Assembly: GCF_001618865.1 (NCBI RefSeq)
Contig: NZ_CP015136.1
Span: 1,151,001 to 1,215,000 of the forward strand
Length of the DNA stretch: 64,000 nucleotides
Direction: 5' to 3'
Source: Luteitalea pratensis
GTDB lineage: Bacteria; Acidobacteriota; Vicinamibacteria; Vicinamibacterales; Vicinamibacteraceae
Under the pieces are notes generated by a model. It was not told the origin of the DNA. It did not search any database and saw nothing but the letters and a program-made list of their open reading frames with translations. A program made the position numbers and the translations under genes. Of the stretch, positions 22,167-29,371 are shown in pieces; position 1 is the first letter of the stretch; the number at the start of each line of letters is the position of its first letter.

Positions 22167-22817
22167 ATGACCCGGTCGTCCAGTCTTCTCCTCTTGATCA
22201 TCTTGATGTCCGCCGGCGTGCAGGCGCGCCCCTGCGGCGACGTCCCGAAACTGGCACTGGGGACGACGGCTATCGCGGGCATCAGCGCGTCCGGTGCACG
22301 GATGCCTGGTAAGAGCGAGTGGCCCTGCCGGCTCGGCGTGCCCAGGCCGATCATCCCGAGAGTCCAGGAACTGTGGATGGCGTCGCGCACCTTCCGGCAG
22401 CAATGTATCCGCCTGGCCGAGTCCGACGTCACCATTGCGGTCGGCTTCTCGCTGATGCTCCCGCCGAACCTGCGCGCGGCGTCGAAAATCCTGAAACGGG
22501 ACGGTCGCGTCTTCTACGTGTCGACGACCTTGCGTGACGACCAGTACATCGAAGAGGACCTTCCGCACGAACTGGAGCACGCGATCGAACAGATCGAGGG
22601 CCGCGACCTTGCGACCGACGCCGCGGCAGGTCGCGGCGCCTGGCCTTCAGCCCTCCATGGCTATGAAACCGTACGAGCGAGAGCCGCCGCAAGGCAGGTA
22701 CGCGAGGAGGTGCGGGCGGCGCGGTGCCGCGGCACATCGGCTCTGGTGGTGGCCGAGCCGGCGGCGCGTCCAGCAGGCGCCGTTACCTTGGCAATCGCGC
22801 CCGCCAGTCCATCGTGA
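22167..22817 (+). CDS. small secreted protein with HELEH zincin-like motif
   Basis: A 216-residue protein from ATG 22167 with GGAGG 6 bases upstream. MTRSSSLLLLIILMSAGVQA is a typical signal peptide. Residues 134-138 read HELEH, embedded in DLPHELEHAIEQIEG, a zincin-like metal site followed by acidic residues that could be the third ligand (E141 or E144). The preceding DGRVFYVSTTLRDDQ strand fits the edge strand of a metallopeptidase. The C-terminal third is Ala/Arg-rich and low in structure. Its 3' end overlaps the convergent kinase gene by 35 bases. A peptidase role is an inference from the motif. Confidence 0.65.
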   Translation: MTRSSSLLLLIILMSAGVQARPCGDVPKLALGTTAIAGISASGARMPGKSEWPCRLGVPRPIIPRVQELWMASRTFRQQCIRLAESDVTIAVGFSLMLPPNLRAASKILKRDGRVFYVSTTLRDDQYIEEDLPHELEHAIEQIEGRDLATDAAAGRGAWPSALHGYETVRARAAARQVREEVRAARCRGTSALVVAEPAARPAGAVTLAIAPASPS

Positions 22818-25671
22818 TCATGATGGGTGGTTGGCTCCGCTGATCGATGGCCGTTGGTATGAGGAACCGCTGACCATCGGCGGTAACGGCGTACGGGCGC
22901 AGCGTGACCAGGCTGAGGCCGCTGGGGAACAGCGGCTCCGGGACGAGCATCCTGAATCCCCGGACCGTTTCAACGCGTGCCGCCATCATCGTGGCGTCCA
23001 GCGACAAGAAGAAGATCTCCTTGCCGTCACCGCGCCATCTTGCGGCCATCCCGCCATCAACCGACACCTTGTGCTCGGCAGCGCCGGAAGGAAACTCCCT
23101 GACGTAGACCTCCGAGCGGCCCGACTTGTCGGACGAGTAGGCCAGCCAGCGGCCGTCGGGAGAGAGCGTGCCGGCGCGTTCCCGCGCGGGCGTCTTCCAG
23201 AGGACCGAAGGCGGAGACTTGCCATCGAGCGTATGGATCCAGTTGTCGCCATCGTCTCCGTAGACGATCGAACGATCGCCTGGCACCCAGGACGGCGTCT
23301 CCGCGGCGTGCCTCGCTGCGACCACGCGTTCGTCCTGTCCGCTTCCGTCCGCTGCACGCAGGAAGAGATCGACGCGACCATCGCTGCGATTCGAGTTGAA
23401 CACGAGTTGCTTGCCGTCGCGAGACCAAGTGGGATCGAATTCCCAGGCCGGATCGGTCGTCAGCGGCACCGCGTCACCGCGCTCGAGATCGAGGATCCAG
23501 ATGTCGGACGCGGCCGTTCCCCTCACCAGCGACGCGGCCACACGCTTGCCGTCTGGACTCAGGTCCAGGGTCGGGTAGCGGCCGGGCTCGCCAAACACGC
23601 CGACGGTCTTGCCACTCCGGTCGCGCCATGTCAGTCGCTGCTCAGACGGGATCGGCCCACCGGGATGAGTCGCCAGCACGCCCGACTCGGAAACGGAGAA
23701 CGCCGCGAGTAGATTCCAGGTGGCAAATGGCGGTTTCGTCACGACCGGCAGCGGAGTTCCTGTCAGCCGGCCAGCGTCTGCATCGAAGCGCTGCGCAACG
23801 AGGTGGCGGCCACTCAGGAAGAGCAGGTGGCCTGCGGAATAGCGCGCGTTCGATTCATGGCGGCCGAGTGAGATCGGGGGCGTGCCGTCGAGGTAGCCGA
23901 TCCGCAACTCTCCTGGATCCCCGGGACGCGTGAGCGCGAGGTACAGAAAGCGCTGGCCGTCCGGGAGAAACGACGGCCAGCGATGAGCGGTCTCTCCCTT
24001 CGCCAGGACCGTGAGCGCCGCAGGAGCCGCACCCGCGCGGGCCAAGACACTGTTCAGCGTGAAAGCACTCGACATGAAGATGATGACGTCGTCGCGATTC
24101 CAGCTGCCGCCGACTTCGTCGCGTTCCGATCCTTCGGGCAAGTCGGGCGCCTCGCACACGACGGTCGGCAAACCGCCGCGCAGCGCGACGATCTTCAGCA
24201 GCCCTTCGGCGAAGAAGCCGATTGCGAGGCCATCCGGCTTCCAGAACGGAAACAGGGCGTCATGAGTTCCGGGAAGCTCCCGGTACTGCAGGCTGCCGAT
24301 GGGCCGCACCCACAGGCTCGACCGGTTCCCAGATTTTGCCGTGACAACAATCTGGCGTCCGTCGGGAGAGACAGCGAAGCCGCCGTATCTGGGCAAGAGC
24401 GTCGCCTGATCTGAAGGAACGACGGGGAATTCGAATAACTCGGACGGGAGCGGCAGGCCGCCAATCTTCGAGAAGACCAACGCCGAAACCGACGCGACAA
24501 CGAGAAGCGCAGCCGCGAGCCACCAGACCGGCCTGGTACGCTGGGCGGGCTCCTGAACTGGCGCCGGCGTCAGATCGCACTCGTCGATCTCGATCCGCGC
24601 ATCGGCAATGTCGTGCAGCCGTTTCGCCGGATCCTTGCGCAGGCACCGCTCGAGCAGCGTCCGGATGGCCCTGGGCGTGTCGGCTGGCAGCGACCCCCAA
24701 TCGGGATCACGTTCAAGGACTCGGCCCAGCGTCTGTGCCGTCGTCTCGCCGTGGAAGGCAGGTCGCCCCGCCAGCATCTCGAAGAGCACGCAGCCGAACG
24801 CCCAGATGTCGGTGCGGTCGTCCACGGCGTCGCCACGCGCCTGCTCAGGGCTCATGTACGCGGCGGTGCCGACGACAAGGCCGGGACTGGCGTCGCTCAA
24901 CGAGACCGCCGATTCGGCCTCGAGCCAACGCTCCGCGGCACGGGTCGGTACGGCGATCTTGGCCAGCCCGAAATCGAGCACCTTCACCTGTCCGTTGCCC
25001 GTGATCTTCACGTTTGCCGGCTTGAGGTCGCGGTGCACGATTCCCTTGGCATGAGCCGTCTCGAGGGCCGTGGCGATCTGTGACGCGATGGACAGCGCCT
25101 CAGCCACCGGCAGTCCCACATGGGTCCTCGCGCGTGCACTTTTCAGCTGCTCGGCCAGTGTGGGACCTTCGACGAGTTCGAGCACGAGGGCTTGTCTGCC
25201 GCCCGCATCGTGCTCGAGGCCATAGATCGCACTGATATGCGGGTGATTCAAGGACGCGAGCACGCGCGCTTCGCGATCGAAACGGGCGAGACGATCCGCG
25301 TCGTTCAGGAAGGCCGGCGGCAGCACCTTGATAGCGACGTCACGACCCAGTTGCGAATCATGGGCCCGGTAGACATCGCCCATCCCGCCCGCACCCAGAA
25401 TCGCAATCATCTCGTAGGGGCCGATGCGGGCGCCCACGAGACCTCGCTCCGGGAGGACCTTCGCCGCCACGTGAAGCGCCGGACTCTCGATGAAGCCTGC
25501 CGCCGATTGTTCGTGGGCGAGGAGCGACTCCACCTCCCGCTGGAGGTCGACATCGCCGGCGCAGACCTCCGCGAGGAAGGCTGCCCGATCGCCCGCATCG
25601 TGATCGAGCGCCGCCTGGCAGATCTGCTCAATCCGTCCCTGGCGCTCAGACGGGGCGTGTTCTCTCGTCAC
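22783..25671 (-). CDS. Ser/Thr protein kinase with C-terminal TolB-like propeller
   Basis: A 962-residue protein from GTG 25671, giving the N-terminus MTREHAPSERQGRIEQICQA, which fits the N-terminal helical extension (DRAAFLAEVCAGD, REVESLLAHE) typical of kinases paired with ECF factors of this type. Kinase motifs: LGAGGMGDVYRA, K115, HRDLKPAN (213-220), DFG from D233, YMSPEQARG. A membrane helix near residue 385 (WWLAAALLVVASVSALVF) precedes propeller repeats such as AVSPDGRQIVVTA, DLSPDGKRVAAS, TWSRDGKQLVFNS and TLSPDGRWLAYSS. It overlaps the sigma-factor gene by 26 bases, so the two are translated from one message and probably form a signalling pair. Confidence 0.92.
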   Translation of the reverse strand: MTREHAPSERQGRIEQICQAALDHDAGDRAAFLAEVCAGDVDLQREVESLLAHEQSAAGFIESPALHVAAKVLPERGLVGARIGPYEMIAILGAGGMGDVYRAHDSQLGRDVAIKVLPPAFLNDADRLARFDREARVLASLNHPHISAIYGLEHDAGGRQALVLELVEGPTLAEQLKSARARTHVGLPVAEALSIASQIATALETAHAKGIVHRDLKPANVKITGNGQVKVLDFGLAKIAVPTRAAERWLEAESAVSLSDASPGLVVGTAAYMSPEQARGDAVDDRTDIWAFGCVLFEMLAGRPAFHGETTAQTLGRVLERDPDWGSLPADTPRAIRTLLERCLRKDPAKRLHDIADARIEIDECDLTPAPVQEPAQRTRPVWWLAAALLVVASVSALVFSKIGGLPLPSELFEFPVVPSDQATLLPRYGGFAVSPDGRQIVVTAKSGNRSSLWVRPIGSLQYRELPGTHDALFPFWKPDGLAIGFFAEGLLKIVALRGGLPTVVCEAPDLPEGSERDEVGGSWNRDDVIIFMSSAFTLNSVLARAGAAPAALTVLAKGETAHRWPSFLPDGQRFLYLALTRPGDPGELRIGYLDGTPPISLGRHESNARYSAGHLLFLSGRHLVAQRFDADAGRLTGTPLPVVTKPPFATWNLLAAFSVSESGVLATHPGGPIPSEQRLTWRDRSGKTVGVFGEPGRYPTLDLSPDGKRVAASLVRGTAASDIWILDLERGDAVPLTTDPAWEFDPTWSRDGKQLVFNSNRSDGRVDLFLRAADGSGQDERVVAARHAAETPSWVPGDRSIVYGDDGDNWIHTLDGKSPPSVLWKTPARERAGTLSPDGRWLAYSSDKSGRSEVYVREFPSGAAEHKVSVDGGMAARWRGDGKEIFFLSLDATMMAARVETVRGFRMLVPEPLFPSGLSLVTLRPYAVTADGQRFLIPTAIDQRSQPPIMITMDWRARLPR

Positions 25672-26233
25672 TGAGTTCTCGCAGTAGCCACAACTTGGCA
25701 AACCGCCAGTCGCGCTTCACCGTGTCGACCGACACGCCGAGCGCCTCCGCAGTTTCTTCGAACGTGAGTCCCCCGAAGAACCGCAACTCGACCACGCGGC
25801 TCTTGCGCGGAAAGGCCTCCTCGAGCAGCTGTAGCGCATCGTCCAACGCGACCAGATCGTCAGGCAGGCTTGAGACGACGAGCGCCTCGTGGAGGGAGAC
25901 ATGACGGATCCCGGCGCCACGCTTGCCGCAGCCGCGTGCCCGAGCGAAATCGACAAGGATGCGCCGCATGGTCCGTGCGGCCACACCAAAGAATTGTGCA
26001 CGGTTCTGCCACTGGACCTTGTTGACATCGATCAGCCGAAGATACGCTTCGTTCACGAGTGCGCTGGCCTGCAGGGTATGGTCGGCGCGCTCCCGTCCCA
26101 TGTAGCGTCGCGCAATACGCCTCAGCTCGTCGTGGACGAGCGGGACCAGCCGATCGAATGCACCACCATCGCCGCGGCCCCATGCCTGCAACAACTCCGT
26201 CGGCGTGGCCGAGTCGTCGGACACGCGGGACAT
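25646..26233 (-). CDS. ECF-type RNA polymerase sigma factor (TIGR02999-like)
   Basis: A 195-residue protein from ATG 26233. Region 2 is visible as LVPLVHDELRRIARRYMGRE, QASALVNEAYLRLID and NRAQFFGVAARTMRRILVDF. Region 4 is RVVELRFFGGLTFEETAEAL followed by VSVDTVKRDWRFAKLWLL, the helix-turn-helix for the -35 element. These are hallmarks of the ECF subfamily found in Acidobacteriota and Planctomycetota next to Ser/Thr kinases. No anti-sigma factor is nearby; the overlapping kinase may take that role. It is divergent from the first PadR gene, with 116 bases between starts. Confidence 0.93.
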   Translation of the reverse strand: MSRVSDDSATPTELLQAWGRGDGGAFDRLVPLVHDELRRIARRYMGRERADHTLQASALVNEAYLRLIDVNKVQWQNRAQFFGVAARTMRRILVDFARARGCGKRGAGIRHVSLHEALVVSSLPDDLVALDDALQLLEEAFPRKSRVVELRFFGGLTFEETAEALGVSVDTVKRDWRFAKLWLLRELSDERTRPV

Positions 26234-26312
26234 GTTACGCCGCTGGCCGGCGGTCGGCGAGAGCCTGATCGGCACGCCTTGCGCCGCGTCACGGTGGCTT
26301 CGCTGCCACCTC

Positions 26313-26359
26313 TTGCCAAACTAGGAGAGCGGCGGTACCGTTTCCTAGTATGACTAGGA
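26313..26359 (+). promoter_or_regulatory. promoter and operator of PadR gene 1; start codon lies inside the palindrome
   Basis: TTGCCA (26313-26318), 17 bases, then TACCGT (26336-26341) form a plausible sigma70-like promoter. ACTAGGA occurs at 26320-26326 and again at 26353-26359, with the inverse TCCTAGT at 26343-26349. The last two flank the ATG (26350-26352), making the perfect palindrome TCCTAGT-ATG-ACTAGGA. The predicted transcription start falls at or next to the ATG, so the mRNA is probably leaderless. PadR proteins usually repress their own gene, so this is the likely autoregulatory site. Confidence 0.7.
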
Positions 26360-26712
26360 GTCGAATCGACGCCGACAAGCCAGCCAGCCTCCTTCCCGGC
26401 ACGCTGGACATGCTGATTCTCAAGGCCGTGTCGCTGGCACCGCTGCACGGATATGGCGTCCTGCTCCGCATTCGGCAGATCTCCGGCAACGCCCTCGACA
26501 TTCCGCAGGGGTCGCTATACCCGGCGCTCCACCGCCTGGACCACCAGGGCCTGATCGCGACCGAATGGGGCCAGAGCGAGAACAACCGCCGGGCGAAGTA
26601 CTACACGCTGACGGCAGCGGGTCGGCGTCGCCTCCGCGACGAGGCCGCGGGCTGGACCCGGCTCGCGACGGCCATCGATGCGGCGATGCGCGCCACGTCC
26701 GAGGAGGTCTGA
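26350..26712 (+). CDS. PadR-family transcriptional regulator 1
   Basis: A 120-residue protein with the PadR winged helix: LLPGTLDMLILKAVSLAPLH, GYGVLLRIRQ, then GSLYPALHRLDHQGLIATEW and NRRAKYYTLTAAGRRRL, followed by the C-terminal dimerisation helix. No ribosome-binding site precedes the ATG, in keeping with a leaderless message. Its TGA ends one base before the ATG of the ADOP permease, so regulator and transporter form an operon, with malic enzyme as a possible third gene. Confidence 0.93.
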   Translation: MTRSRIDADKPASLLPGTLDMLILKAVSLAPLHGYGVLLRIRQISGNALDIPQGSLYPALHRLDHQGLIATEWGQSENNRRAKYYTLTAAGRRRLRDEAAGWTRLATAIDAAMRATSEEV

Positions 26713-26713
26713 G

Positions 26714-29371
26714 ATGCTCGCGCGGCTCCGTTCCCTCGTGGGTTCGCTTGCGCAGCGTCGTACATTCGAGGCCGACCTCGACGAGGAGCTCGGCGCCCAC
26801 ATCGAGCAGTACACCCGGGACCTCATTGGTTCGGGAATGTCACCGGAGGACGCGCACCGGCAGGCGCGCCTCGAGCTTGGCGGACTGAACACGGTCAAGG
26901 ACGAGTGCCGTGAGGCGCGCGGACTCGGCGCATTCGATGCGTTCCAGCGGGAGTGCCGGTACGCCGCCCGCCAGCTGCGGCGCAGCCCAGGATTTGCCGG
27001 CACCGTCGTGCTCACGCTCGCCCTCTCGATCGGCGCCAACACCGCCATCTTCTCCCTCGTCAACACGCTGCTGCTGGAAGCGTTGCCTTACGCGCAGCCG
27101 GAGCGCATCGGGACGCTGTATGCCCGGACCTCGGGTCTCGAGTCGGCGGAGGCGCGCAGAACCGTCGATGGCGAGCAGTGGGAACACGTGCGCGACGAGG
27201 TGTCGTCGGTCGTCCCGGCGGTGGCGACGACGGGGACATCCGGGGCGAACATTCGCGCGGGTTCCGTCGTTCGATATGTTCGTGCCGGCCGGGTCTCGGC
27301 ACGATATTTCGACGTACTGGCGCTGCACCCCGTCGTGGGACGTACGTTTGCACCGGACGAAGACGTTCCAAACGGTCCGAACGTCGCGATGCTGAGCCAC
27401 GCCCTGTGGCAGAACATGCTCGGCGGCCGCACCGACGTCGTCGGGCAGTCCGTGATGCTGAAGGGCGAACCGTACACGGTCGTCGGCGTCCTGCCCGAAG
27501 GGGCCACGACGCCTCTCGAAGCCGACGTGTACACCGCCCTGCAACCGAACCGCGACGGGGACGGGAGGGCAGCAAACTTCCGCCTCGTCATGCGGCTGCG
27601 TGATGGCGCGACATGGCAGCAGGCCGACGCCGAACTGCATCGCGCGTTGAGCGCGAGCTCCCGTTTCCAGAACTTTGCGCGCGAAAATCCTGGCACGCAG
27701 CTGAACTACCACGCGGTGCCACTGCAGCAGGCCGCGACCGATACCCTCAGGCCCCAGGTCCTGGCACTGATGATCGCGGCAGGACTCATCGTGCTCATTG
27801 CGTGCGCCAATATTGCCGGCCTCAGCCTGGTCCGCATGTTGCGCCGGACGCGCGAGATCACCATCCGCCTGGCGCTGGGTGCGTCCCGATGGCAGATTCA
27901 GCGCCAGCTGTGGGTCGAGCACCTGTTGCTGGCCGCGGCGGGCGGCATGGTGGGTCTCGGCGTCGGCGCGCTTGCGCTTCGCGGGTTGCTGCAACTCCTG
28001 CCGGAGCGCTTCCTGCCTGTCGCCACCGTGACGCTCGATGGCCGGGTCCTGGGCTTCACGCTCCTGCTCTCGCTGATGACCTGCGTGCTGTCGGGAGTGT
28101 TGCCAGCCGTCGCCATGGGCGGCGTCAGCCTACGATCCTCCGCGCCGGGGCGCGGCGTGATCGGCGGCGGACACATCCGTCTCAGGCAGATGCTGATTGG
28201 CGGAGAAGTGGCGCTGACGGTCGTGCTGCTTGCCGCGGCGGGACTGCTGGTCCGGACGCTCATCGGCCTGCAGACGATGCCGCCCGGCTTCAATCCGGCC
28301 GGTGTGATCACCGCGAAGGTATCGCTCGACGACGTTCGATATCACGACCCCGGGGCCTTTCGCAGGTTGCTGACCGAGAGTCTGTCGGCGATGAGCCGGA
28401 TTCCTGGCGTGCAGAGCGCCGCCGTCGCCTTGACGCTGCCCTACGAGCGGGCCGTGTTCAACGGCGTGAAGCTCGGTTCCGGCAAGGAGGCGGGGCGAAC
28501 GATCAGCACGAATCATGTGTACGTGACGCCTCGCTATTTCGAGACCATGCAGATCGCGGTGCTCGAAGGCCGCGTGTTCACGGACGCGGACGGCCCTGAC
28601 GACCAGCCGGTCACCATCGTCAACCGGTCGTTCGCACGCAAGTTCTTCGGGGAGGAGAGTCCGGTCGGCCGGTATCTCGACGACAAGGTCCTGATCGTCG
28701 GCATCGTCGCCGACACCGTCCTGTCCGCGGAAGGCCGGTTGAACCCGGGAACGGCCCCCTTGACCCGCGAAGAGATGGTCTATGTCCCTGCCGCCCAGGT
28801 GACCGACTCCAAGATGCTCGCCCTCGCGCACGGCTTCTTCCAGCCAAGCTGGATTGTCCGGACGGCCGCCCCGGCGGGTGTGCCTGCCCAGATGCAGCGC
28901 GTACTGTCGAACGCCGATCCGCAACTCGCCATGTCGGGCGTGTTCGAGATGAGTGACCTCATGGCTCTCGCACTCGCGCGCCAGCGGGTCGCCGTGGCGC
29001 TGTTGGCCGTGATGTCGGCGCTCGCGCTTCTGCTGAGCGCGGTGGGCATCTTCGCGTTGGTCGCCAGCGTGGTTGCGCAGCGGACACGGGAAATCGGGAT
29101 CCTGATGGCGTTGGGCTCGACCGTTCCACAGACCATGGTCCGCGTCGGCAGGGCCGGCGTGATCACCTCGGGAGTGGGATTGCTGCTTGGACTGATCCTG
29201 TGCGCCGTCGTGCTGCCGGCGATGCGCAGCGTCCTGTACGGCGTCGGCGTGTACGACCTGCCGACCATGCTGGCGGTGGTGCTGACGCTGGTGGCCGTGA
29301 CCCTCCTGGCCACGACGCCCATCCTGAGGATTGCGCGCATCGACCCCGTGAAGGCCCTCCGCGAAGAATAA
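26714..29371 (+). CDS. ADOP-type ABC transporter permease 1 (MacB/FtsX-like)
   Basis: An 885-residue protein from ATG 26714, with GGAGG 6 bases upstream inside the end of the PadR gene. The N-terminal segment with DLDEELGAHIEQYTRDLI is typical of acidobacterial duplicated orphan permeases. Two MacB-type periplasmic domains and two FtsX-type membrane blocks follow: helix 1 GTVVLTLALSIGANTAIFSL, the middle block LMIAAGLIVLIACANIAGLS with REITIRLALGASRWQIQRQL, and the C-terminal block EIGILMALGSTVPQTMVRVG ending ARIDPVKALREE. No ATPase gene is nearby, as usual for the family. Substrate is unknown. Confidence 0.92.
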   Translation: MLARLRSLVGSLAQRRTFEADLDEELGAHIEQYTRDLIGSGMSPEDAHRQARLELGGLNTVKDECREARGLGAFDAFQRECRYAARQLRRSPGFAGTVVLTLALSIGANTAIFSLVNTLLLEALPYAQPERIGTLYARTSGLESAEARRTVDGEQWEHVRDEVSSVVPAVATTGTSGANIRAGSVVRYVRAGRVSARYFDVLALHPVVGRTFAPDEDVPNGPNVAMLSHALWQNMLGGRTDVVGQSVMLKGEPYTVVGVLPEGATTPLEADVYTALQPNRDGDGRAANFRLVMRLRDGATWQQADAELHRALSASSRFQNFARENPGTQLNYHAVPLQQAATDTLRPQVLALMIAAGLIVLIACANIAGLSLVRMLRRTREITIRLALGASRWQIQRQLWVEHLLLAAAGGMVGLGVGALALRGLLQLLPERFLPVATVTLDGRVLGFTLLLSLMTCVLSGVLPAVAMGGVSLRSSAPGRGVIGGGHIRLRQMLIGGEVALTVVLLAAAGLLVRTLIGLQTMPPGFNPAGVITAKVSLDDVRYHDPGAFRRLLTESLSAMSRIPGVQSAAVALTLPYERAVFNGVKLGSGKEAGRTISTNHVYVTPRYFETMQIAVLEGRVFTDADGPDDQPVTIVNRSFARKFFGEESPVGRYLDDKVLIVGIVADTVLSAEGRLNPGTAPLTREEMVYVPAAQVTDSKMLALAHGFFQPSWIVRTAAPAGVPAQMQRVLSNADPQLAMSGVFEMSDLMALALARQRVAVALLAVMSALALLLSAVGIFALVASVVAQRTREIGILMALGSTVPQTMVRVGRAGVITSGVGLLLGLILCAVVLPAMRSVLYGVGVYDLPTMLAVVLTLVAVTLLATTPILRIARIDPVKALREE

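Follow-up and report, generated by a model that had tools for sequence, protein, structure and literature searches.

The 64-kb stretch of DNA analysed here, referred to below as the window, carries a padR–ADOP permease operon that is likely self-repressed, with PadR acting on two upstream operators, O1 and O2, with the padR start codon in the spacer of O2, and with a message that is leaderless or nearly leaderless. Both operators are conserved in relatives, the start codon of padR is shifted into O2 compared with its orthologues, and the same geometry recurs at other PadR genes. From the sequence we infer PadR binding, repression, the position of +1 and leaderless translation. The best reading of padR is leaderless or near-leaderless, self-repressed expression, the leaderless part of which appears moderately supported. 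The features of the locus are as follows:

26309–26327, plus strand: O1, the upstream operator, CCTCTTG-CCAAA-CTAGGAG, with 11 of 14 arm bases as in the family consensus
26313–26318, plus strand: −35-like TTGCCA, the TTG of which forms positions 5–7 of O1
26336–26341, plus strand: weak −10-like TACCGT, 17 bp past the −35 and 8 nt ahead of the ATG
26342–26360, plus strand: O2, the downstream operator, TTCCTAG-TATGA-CTAGGAG, with 13 of 14 arm bases as in the family consensus, containing the 17-bp palindrome at 26343–26359
26350–26352, plus strand: ATG start codon of padR, the three central bases of O2 and the sole ATG, GTG or TTG in frame before the conserved core
26350–26712, plus strand: padR, an ATG-initiated open reading frame of 120 aa, assigned to TIGR03433 and PF03551 by profile scores
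26371–26373, plus strand: GCC, codon 8 of padR, the start-codon position in 65 of 80 orthologues
26701–26707, plus strand: GAGGAGG, a Shine-Dalgarno-like sequence for the permease gene, recognized from the letters
26714–29371, plus strand: ADOP-family permease gene, above the TIGR03434 cut-off, with MacB_PCD and FtsX domains

The padR locus contains two operators

The initial annotation had described TCCTAGT-ATG-ACTAGGA as a perfect palindrome with the start codon as its spacer. This was confirmed at 26343–26359, without a mismatch and with the ATG at 26350–26352, and the site was extended to 19 bp. When up to 3 mismatches were allowed, the shuffled window gave a mean of 0.39 matches to the palindrome, while the real site has 0 mismatches; two further places in the 64-kb window match it, each with 3 mismatches. 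In the genome of 7,480,314 bases CCTAGTNNNACTAGG at up to 1 mismatch was found at this locus alone, compared with 28 matches per strand for the reversed control. A chance palindrome was ruled out by the shuffles, by the uniqueness in the genome, and by the conservation in relatives. The half-site ACTAGGA is present in three copies in 64 kb, all of them at the padR locus (26320–26326, 26343–26349 on the minus strand, and 26353–26359). Because 10 of 100 shuffles of the window also reached three copies somewhere in 64 kb, it is not the copy number alone but the clustering that is significant. The copy at 26320–26326, previously regarded as a third half-site, is present, but it is the right half of a second full operator, O1, which embeds the −35 element; this follows from the O1 consensus of relatives, CTCC[TTGACA]GT-CTAGGAG, in which the arm bases TTG open the −35 hexamer. 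Both operators have a 19-bp, 7-N5-7 form and are sited before the padR–ADOP permease operon, and their centers are 33 bp apart, which is about three helical turns. The classical PadR operator motif is ATGT-N8-ACAT. Reading of both 19-bp sites showed that ATGT/ACAT half-sites are absent from O1 and O2.

The PadR protein scored 136.2 bits against TIGR03433 (curated cut-off 101.8) and 75.8 bits against PF03551 (cut-off 27), and 42 distinct sequences of solved structures, mostly PadR regulators, matched it at E ≤ 0.001; there are 41 matches to it in its own genome. Compared with eight relatives, padR differs mainly in the third position of its codons (versus L045 there are 11, 4, and 47 differences at positions 1, 2, and 3), and the padR coding region is under purifying selection. 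The permease scored 676.8 bits against TIGR03434 (curated cut-off 622.3), and its frame is intact. Its start at 26714, one base past the padR stop, was our choice; the list of open reading frames gives an in-frame ATG at 26678. On the minus strand (22783–26275), divergent from padR, are an ECF sigma factor and then a protein kinase with PD40 repeats, and O1 is located about 35–75 bp from the possible starts of the divergent genes. The window PadR shares 85% identity with proteins from genomes labelled Acidobacteria and Acidiferrum (L045 and L072), and its best identity in its own genus is 63%. Horizontal spread of the padR–ADOP cassette is possible.

The operators are conserved in relatives

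A contig scan yielded 205 confirmed relatives, of which the best 80 were examined. In 78 of these best 80 of 205, O2 was found near the gene at 12/14 or better to CTCCTAG-N5-CTAGGAG, compared with 6 of 1600 shuffled promoter regions, so the motif does occur upstream of orthologues, where the initial annotation had suggested looking for it. O1 (at least 10/14) was present upstream along with O2 in 74 of the same 80, and the spacing between the two was 31–35 bp in 72 of the 74. O2 was absent in L076 and L083, and it occurred without O1 in L064, L079, L100, and L106, the L079 site being O1-like in sequence. Because of this retention of both sites among the 80 relatives, the interpretation of O1 and O2 as a conserved autoregulatory operator pair is well supported. 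The earlier proposal of a PadR-type operator over the first codon thus gains from the presence of O2 in relatives and from ATG codons at operator centers elsewhere (see below), but none of the 80 orthologues examined has its ATG start inside the operator. Overall, padR is probably repressed by its own protein at the palindrome over its first codon.

The padR start codon is shifted into O2

In the 78 relatives that bear O2, the in-frame start nearest to the conserved core is located 4–24 nt past O2 (39 ATG, 30 GTG, and 9 TTG), and for the 74 with both sites the predicted leaders are 14–35 nt long, 22 nt being the commonest. In 65 of the 80 relatives, this start is at offset −6 from codon 10 of the window gene, that is two codons before it, and in none of the 80 is the core-nearest start inside O2. 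An additional in-frame non-ATG start is present in the O2 spacer of L081 (GTG) and L113 (TTG), both of which also have a downstream start, and in L117 and L119 there is an ATG in the spacer which is out of frame. Among 24 loci from the order or genus, at least four of which were already in the set of 80, the start is two to three codons before codon 10 in 23 and at codon 10 in one, compared with nine codons before it in the window. The right arm of O2, CTAGGAG, which is ahead of the relatives' starts, resembles a Shine-Dalgarno sequence.

The spacer of O2 in the window reads T-ATG-A. Because the distance from O2 to the core is unchanged (−35 in the window, mostly about −36 to −29 in relatives), no deletion is needed to explain the shift. 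With GCC at the old start position, the ATG of O2 is left as the sole canonical start in frame, so that what was the leader now forms codons 2–7 of the coding sequence. An exact match to TCCTAGNATGNCTAGGA was found in one of 396 genomes of the phylum, which is the own genome, while the other 395 are without it. The layout with the ATG in the operator is thus not one that the examined orthologues share, which corrects the initial picture as regards conservation. Since these orthologues are leadered, the window gene stands alone within the operator family in having a shifted start.

The promoter would place the 5′ end of the message near the ATG

The −10 hexamer in the window is TACCGT, compared with mostly TATACT-like hexamers in relatives, where the promoter frame is TTGnCA-17/18-TAnnnT and the O2 center lies close to the predicted +1. 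The predicted +1 was 1 nt from the O2 center in six of nine examples; the offsets of the other three were −2 (L066), 3 (the window), and 4 (L118). A strict consensus promoter scan at padR called nothing. With the gap of 8 nt between the −10 and the ATG, the predicted padR leader is expected to be 0–2 nt long, not certainly 0. The proposed start of transcription at the ATG is therefore supported by the spacing to within about 2 nt, but the −10 on which it depends is weak and escaped the strict scan.

A TANNNT sequence about 12 bp before the start has been read as a mark of leaderless genes (PMC3160421), and the same signal of a −10 close to the start, with a spacing requirement, is described in Deinococcus-Thermus (PMC12340547). 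TACCGT fits TANNNT, with its first T 14 bp before the ATG, compared with about 12 bp in this criterion. The signal was surveyed in 464 kb of the own genome, using a crude gene call that gave 231 open reading frames, 168 of them with a usable ATG. TANNNT was located 6–8 nt before the ATG in 12 of the 168 genes, while elsewhere it occurred about 0.8 times per position; it was also 6–8 nt upstream of 7 of 172 GTG candidates in the same 464 kb. Only two of the TANNNT genes also had a TTG −35 at 16–18 bp, both with the 8-nt spacing seen in the window. A Shine-Dalgarno-like sequence was found in 49 of the 168 ATG genes.

The operator geometry recurs at other PadR genes

Other PadR promoters were searched, with no sequence supplied, for two 7-N5-7 dyads that are 28–36 bp apart and have half-sites in common. 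Because the spacing and the form were set after the orthologues had been viewed, this tandem-dyad test is independent only for other half-sites. Among 38 PadR promoters of the own genome, 15 were significant at p ≤ 0.05. In a larger set of 128 promoters, with 200 shuffles each, p ≤ 0.03 was reached by 12 of 39 from the own genome and 23 of 89 from genomes G003, G005, and G006, when about 4 would be expected by chance overall. O1 and O2 of the window gave p = 0.01 in the set of 38 and p = 0.005 in the set of 128. Two short, C-terminal own-genome matches (5415828 and 1812685) were left out, and the 38-promoter sets omit L034 as well. For the three other genomes, 90 of 119 matches were examined and 29 left out, and L158 was dropped because of stop codons, which gave 89; L166 was kept among them although its anchor is not PadR-like, and L036, a broken gene, was kept among the 35 significant promoters. 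TTG was found at O1 positions 5–7 in 10 of the 12 own-genome and 16 of the 23 other significant promoters. The remaining 93 of the 128 gave no significant dyad pair in this test; their sites may be spaced differently, and some clearly carry other inverted repeats. The tandem-dyad test superseded a test for the single best inverted repeat, in which 15 of 38 promoters reached p ≤ 0.05 and the window gave p of about 0.2, because that test allowed spacers up to 21 nt and ignored the tandem frame.

The positions of in-frame ATG codons relative to the O2 center showed two peaks, one at exactly −1, with 7 of the 35 significant promoters, the other at +10 to +20. The seven cases are the window (CTCCTAG), L018 (CGGGTTG), L020 (CCATTGG), L021 (CCTATGG-like), and L174, L217, and L232 from the sister genus, with fewer of them independent because L217 and L232 share one operator. 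When the window is excluded, 6 of 34 remain, with a binomial tail of 1.3e-5 at a rate of 1/64 and 0.0014 at 1/27, the latter rate allowing for the start having to fall somewhere nearby. These six promoters are mostly without another nearby in-frame start. L024 of the own genome shares this frame, with p = 0.04 in the 38-promoter test, and falls short of the cut in the 128-promoter test. In the window gene and in L018, L020, L021, and L024, O1 and O2 have the same positions relative to the ATG (−41 and −8), with different half-sites. In L227 and L231 the codon at the O2 center is an in-frame GTG, one of several candidate starts. In L017 (176948) and L031 (6202976) of the own genome, the start codon is in or beside an inverted repeat, off its exact center. 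L036 (own genome, about 6839735–6839999) has three tandem 19-bp sites of the same family, at 6839735, 6839766, and 6839798, before a PadR N-terminus whose reading frame extends into a permease-like region, which suggests the remnant of a second such cassette with an internal deletion.

Across the paralogues, operator similarity tracks PadR similarity (r = 0.45, 0 of 5000 permutations). When overall relatedness was removed, the partial correlation between the half-site and the recognition segment was 0.17, a value reached by 143 of 5000 permutations; this comparison used 25 of 28 entries after removal of near-duplicates, with L036 left out. The covariation of recognition segment and half-site is weak, and overall PadR relatedness explains more. 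Outside padR promoters, a degenerate operator pattern gave 32 sites per strand in the own genome compared with 31 for the reversed control, and because of this similarity a regulon beyond padR promoters cannot be claimed.

Alternative readings of the locus

The operators could be real and the gene could have kept a short leader, with translation starting at a non-canonical ATC (26365–26367), CTAGGAG at 26354–26360 serving as the Shine-Dalgarno sequence, and the ATG of O2 being incidental. The window retains that right arm in full, and the starts of the 78 O2-bearing relatives are also located past O2. On the other hand, the frame has no ATG, GTG, or TTG from 26353 to the conserved core, the gap from AGGAG to the ATC is only 4 nt, and an ATG occupies the same place in O2 in six other promoters that mostly offer no alternative, so that such a start is unlikely. 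It is quite unlikely that the cassette is instead losing expression, its old start and a good −10 having decayed and the ATG in O2 being a fortuitous replacement from which little or nothing is translated. The departure of the −10 from the TATACT-like form and the restriction of the pattern to one of 396 genomes of the phylum would fit such decay, but third-position differences prevail between padR and its eight relatives, both operators are retained, and the permease frame is not interrupted.

Two further explanations concern what the sites do. A regulator other than the adjacent PadR might bind O1 and O2, as the weak covariation with the recognition segment would allow; this is very improbable given that close PadR relatives in many genomes have the half-site unchanged and that operator similarity follows PadR similarity with the correlation given above. 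It is extremely improbable that the palindrome functions in RNA, as a hairpin at the 5′ terminus of the transcript, and not in DNA as an operator. Its arms are perfectly complementary over 7 bp, but a +1 near the center leaves only one arm in the message, and the motif occurs again in O1, ahead of the predicted start. The predicted fold of the first 81 nt was also no more stable than that of shuffled sequences (z = 0.07), on which ground the hairpin was set aside as the main reading.

DISCUSSION

In the self-repressed operon proposed here, two PadR dimers would occupy O1 and O2, with O1 covering the −35 and O2 the transcription start, and RNA polymerase would be shut out because both elements are covered. 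A ligand would release PadR and admit RNA polymerase. Because the start codon has moved into the five-base spacer of O2, which is centered on the predicted +1, the padR message would begin at the AUG or within about 2 nt of it. Translation of PadR would then not involve a Shine-Dalgarno sequence; the permease has kept one of its own. Leaderless translation may keep PadR low relative to the permease, as in AcuR (PMC3017554). The relatives would use the same operators with a start about 21 nt further downstream and CTAGGAG of O2 as the Shine-Dalgarno-like element, which in the window would have been turned, with the rest of the old leader, into codons of padR. The natural intermediate would be a message with both a 5′-terminal AUG and a downstream Shine-Dalgarno start. 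Because O2 marks the +1, an ATG in its spacer would convert a leadered gene to a leaderless one, absorbing the leader and the Shine-Dalgarno sequence into the protein, and such conversion would make the five bases of the spacer serve both repression and the start of translation. More tentatively, acidobacterial padR–ADOP cassettes may share a frame with O1 on the −35 and O2 on the +1 while having private half-sites, and repeated independent leaderless conversion might have given dozens of insulated self-repressors per genome.

A literature search on acidobacterial PadR operators or ADOP control found nothing relevant. Lambda cI and Tn1721 tetR have operators nearby, their families and operator layout differ from those of padR, and to our knowledge neither has an operator centered on the start codon. 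The leaderless autorepressor AcuR of the TetR family, from the acuR-acuI-dddL operon of Rhodobacter sphaeroides, resembles the window padR in that the repressor gene is first in the operon and an inverted-repeat operator lies over the promoter; the acuR message starts exactly at the AUG and is translated less than the downstream genes (PMC3017554). It differs in family and in having one operator, with 8-bp arms and a 6-bp spacer, that overlaps the promoter and is not described as start-codon-centered in the excerpted account, and its leaderless ATG is conserved in homologues, while that of the window padR is not (PMC3017554). The same account names lambda cI and Tn1721 tetR as leaderless repressor messages (PMC3017554). 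PadR regulators of the LmrR type repress themselves via palindromes in their own promoters, and LmrR of Lactococcus lactis is like the window case in being a PadR dimer with such a palindrome and in controlling a transporter (PMC4534193). The binding of several dimers to the lmrR promoter can be likened to the two-dimer layout predicted here; unlike the window, LmrR has another motif, lmrCD has its own promoter, and overlap with the start codon is not described in the excerpts of that report (PMC4534193). E. coli messages that combine a 5′-terminal AUG with a downstream Shine-Dalgarno start exist, and they keep the downstream start which the window padR has lost (PMC4965119). Leaderless genes led by TANNNT share with the window the −10 close ahead of the start codon, while an operator at the start codon is not described in the cited parts of those studies (PMC3160421, PMC12340547).

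PadR proteins of the TIGR03433 type are very numerous in some Acidobacteria: among close relatives, G003 has 4 matches, while two other genomes, G005 and G006, have 70 and 45. The predicted operator frame is thus testable across many padR cassettes together. The padR gene of the window is a concrete case of an untranslated leader turned coding, and it indicates a route between Shine-Dalgarno-led and leaderless translation, a route on which discussion has otherwise mostly stayed general. Numerous paralogues, each with a half-site of its own, would form a natural set of insulated repressors.
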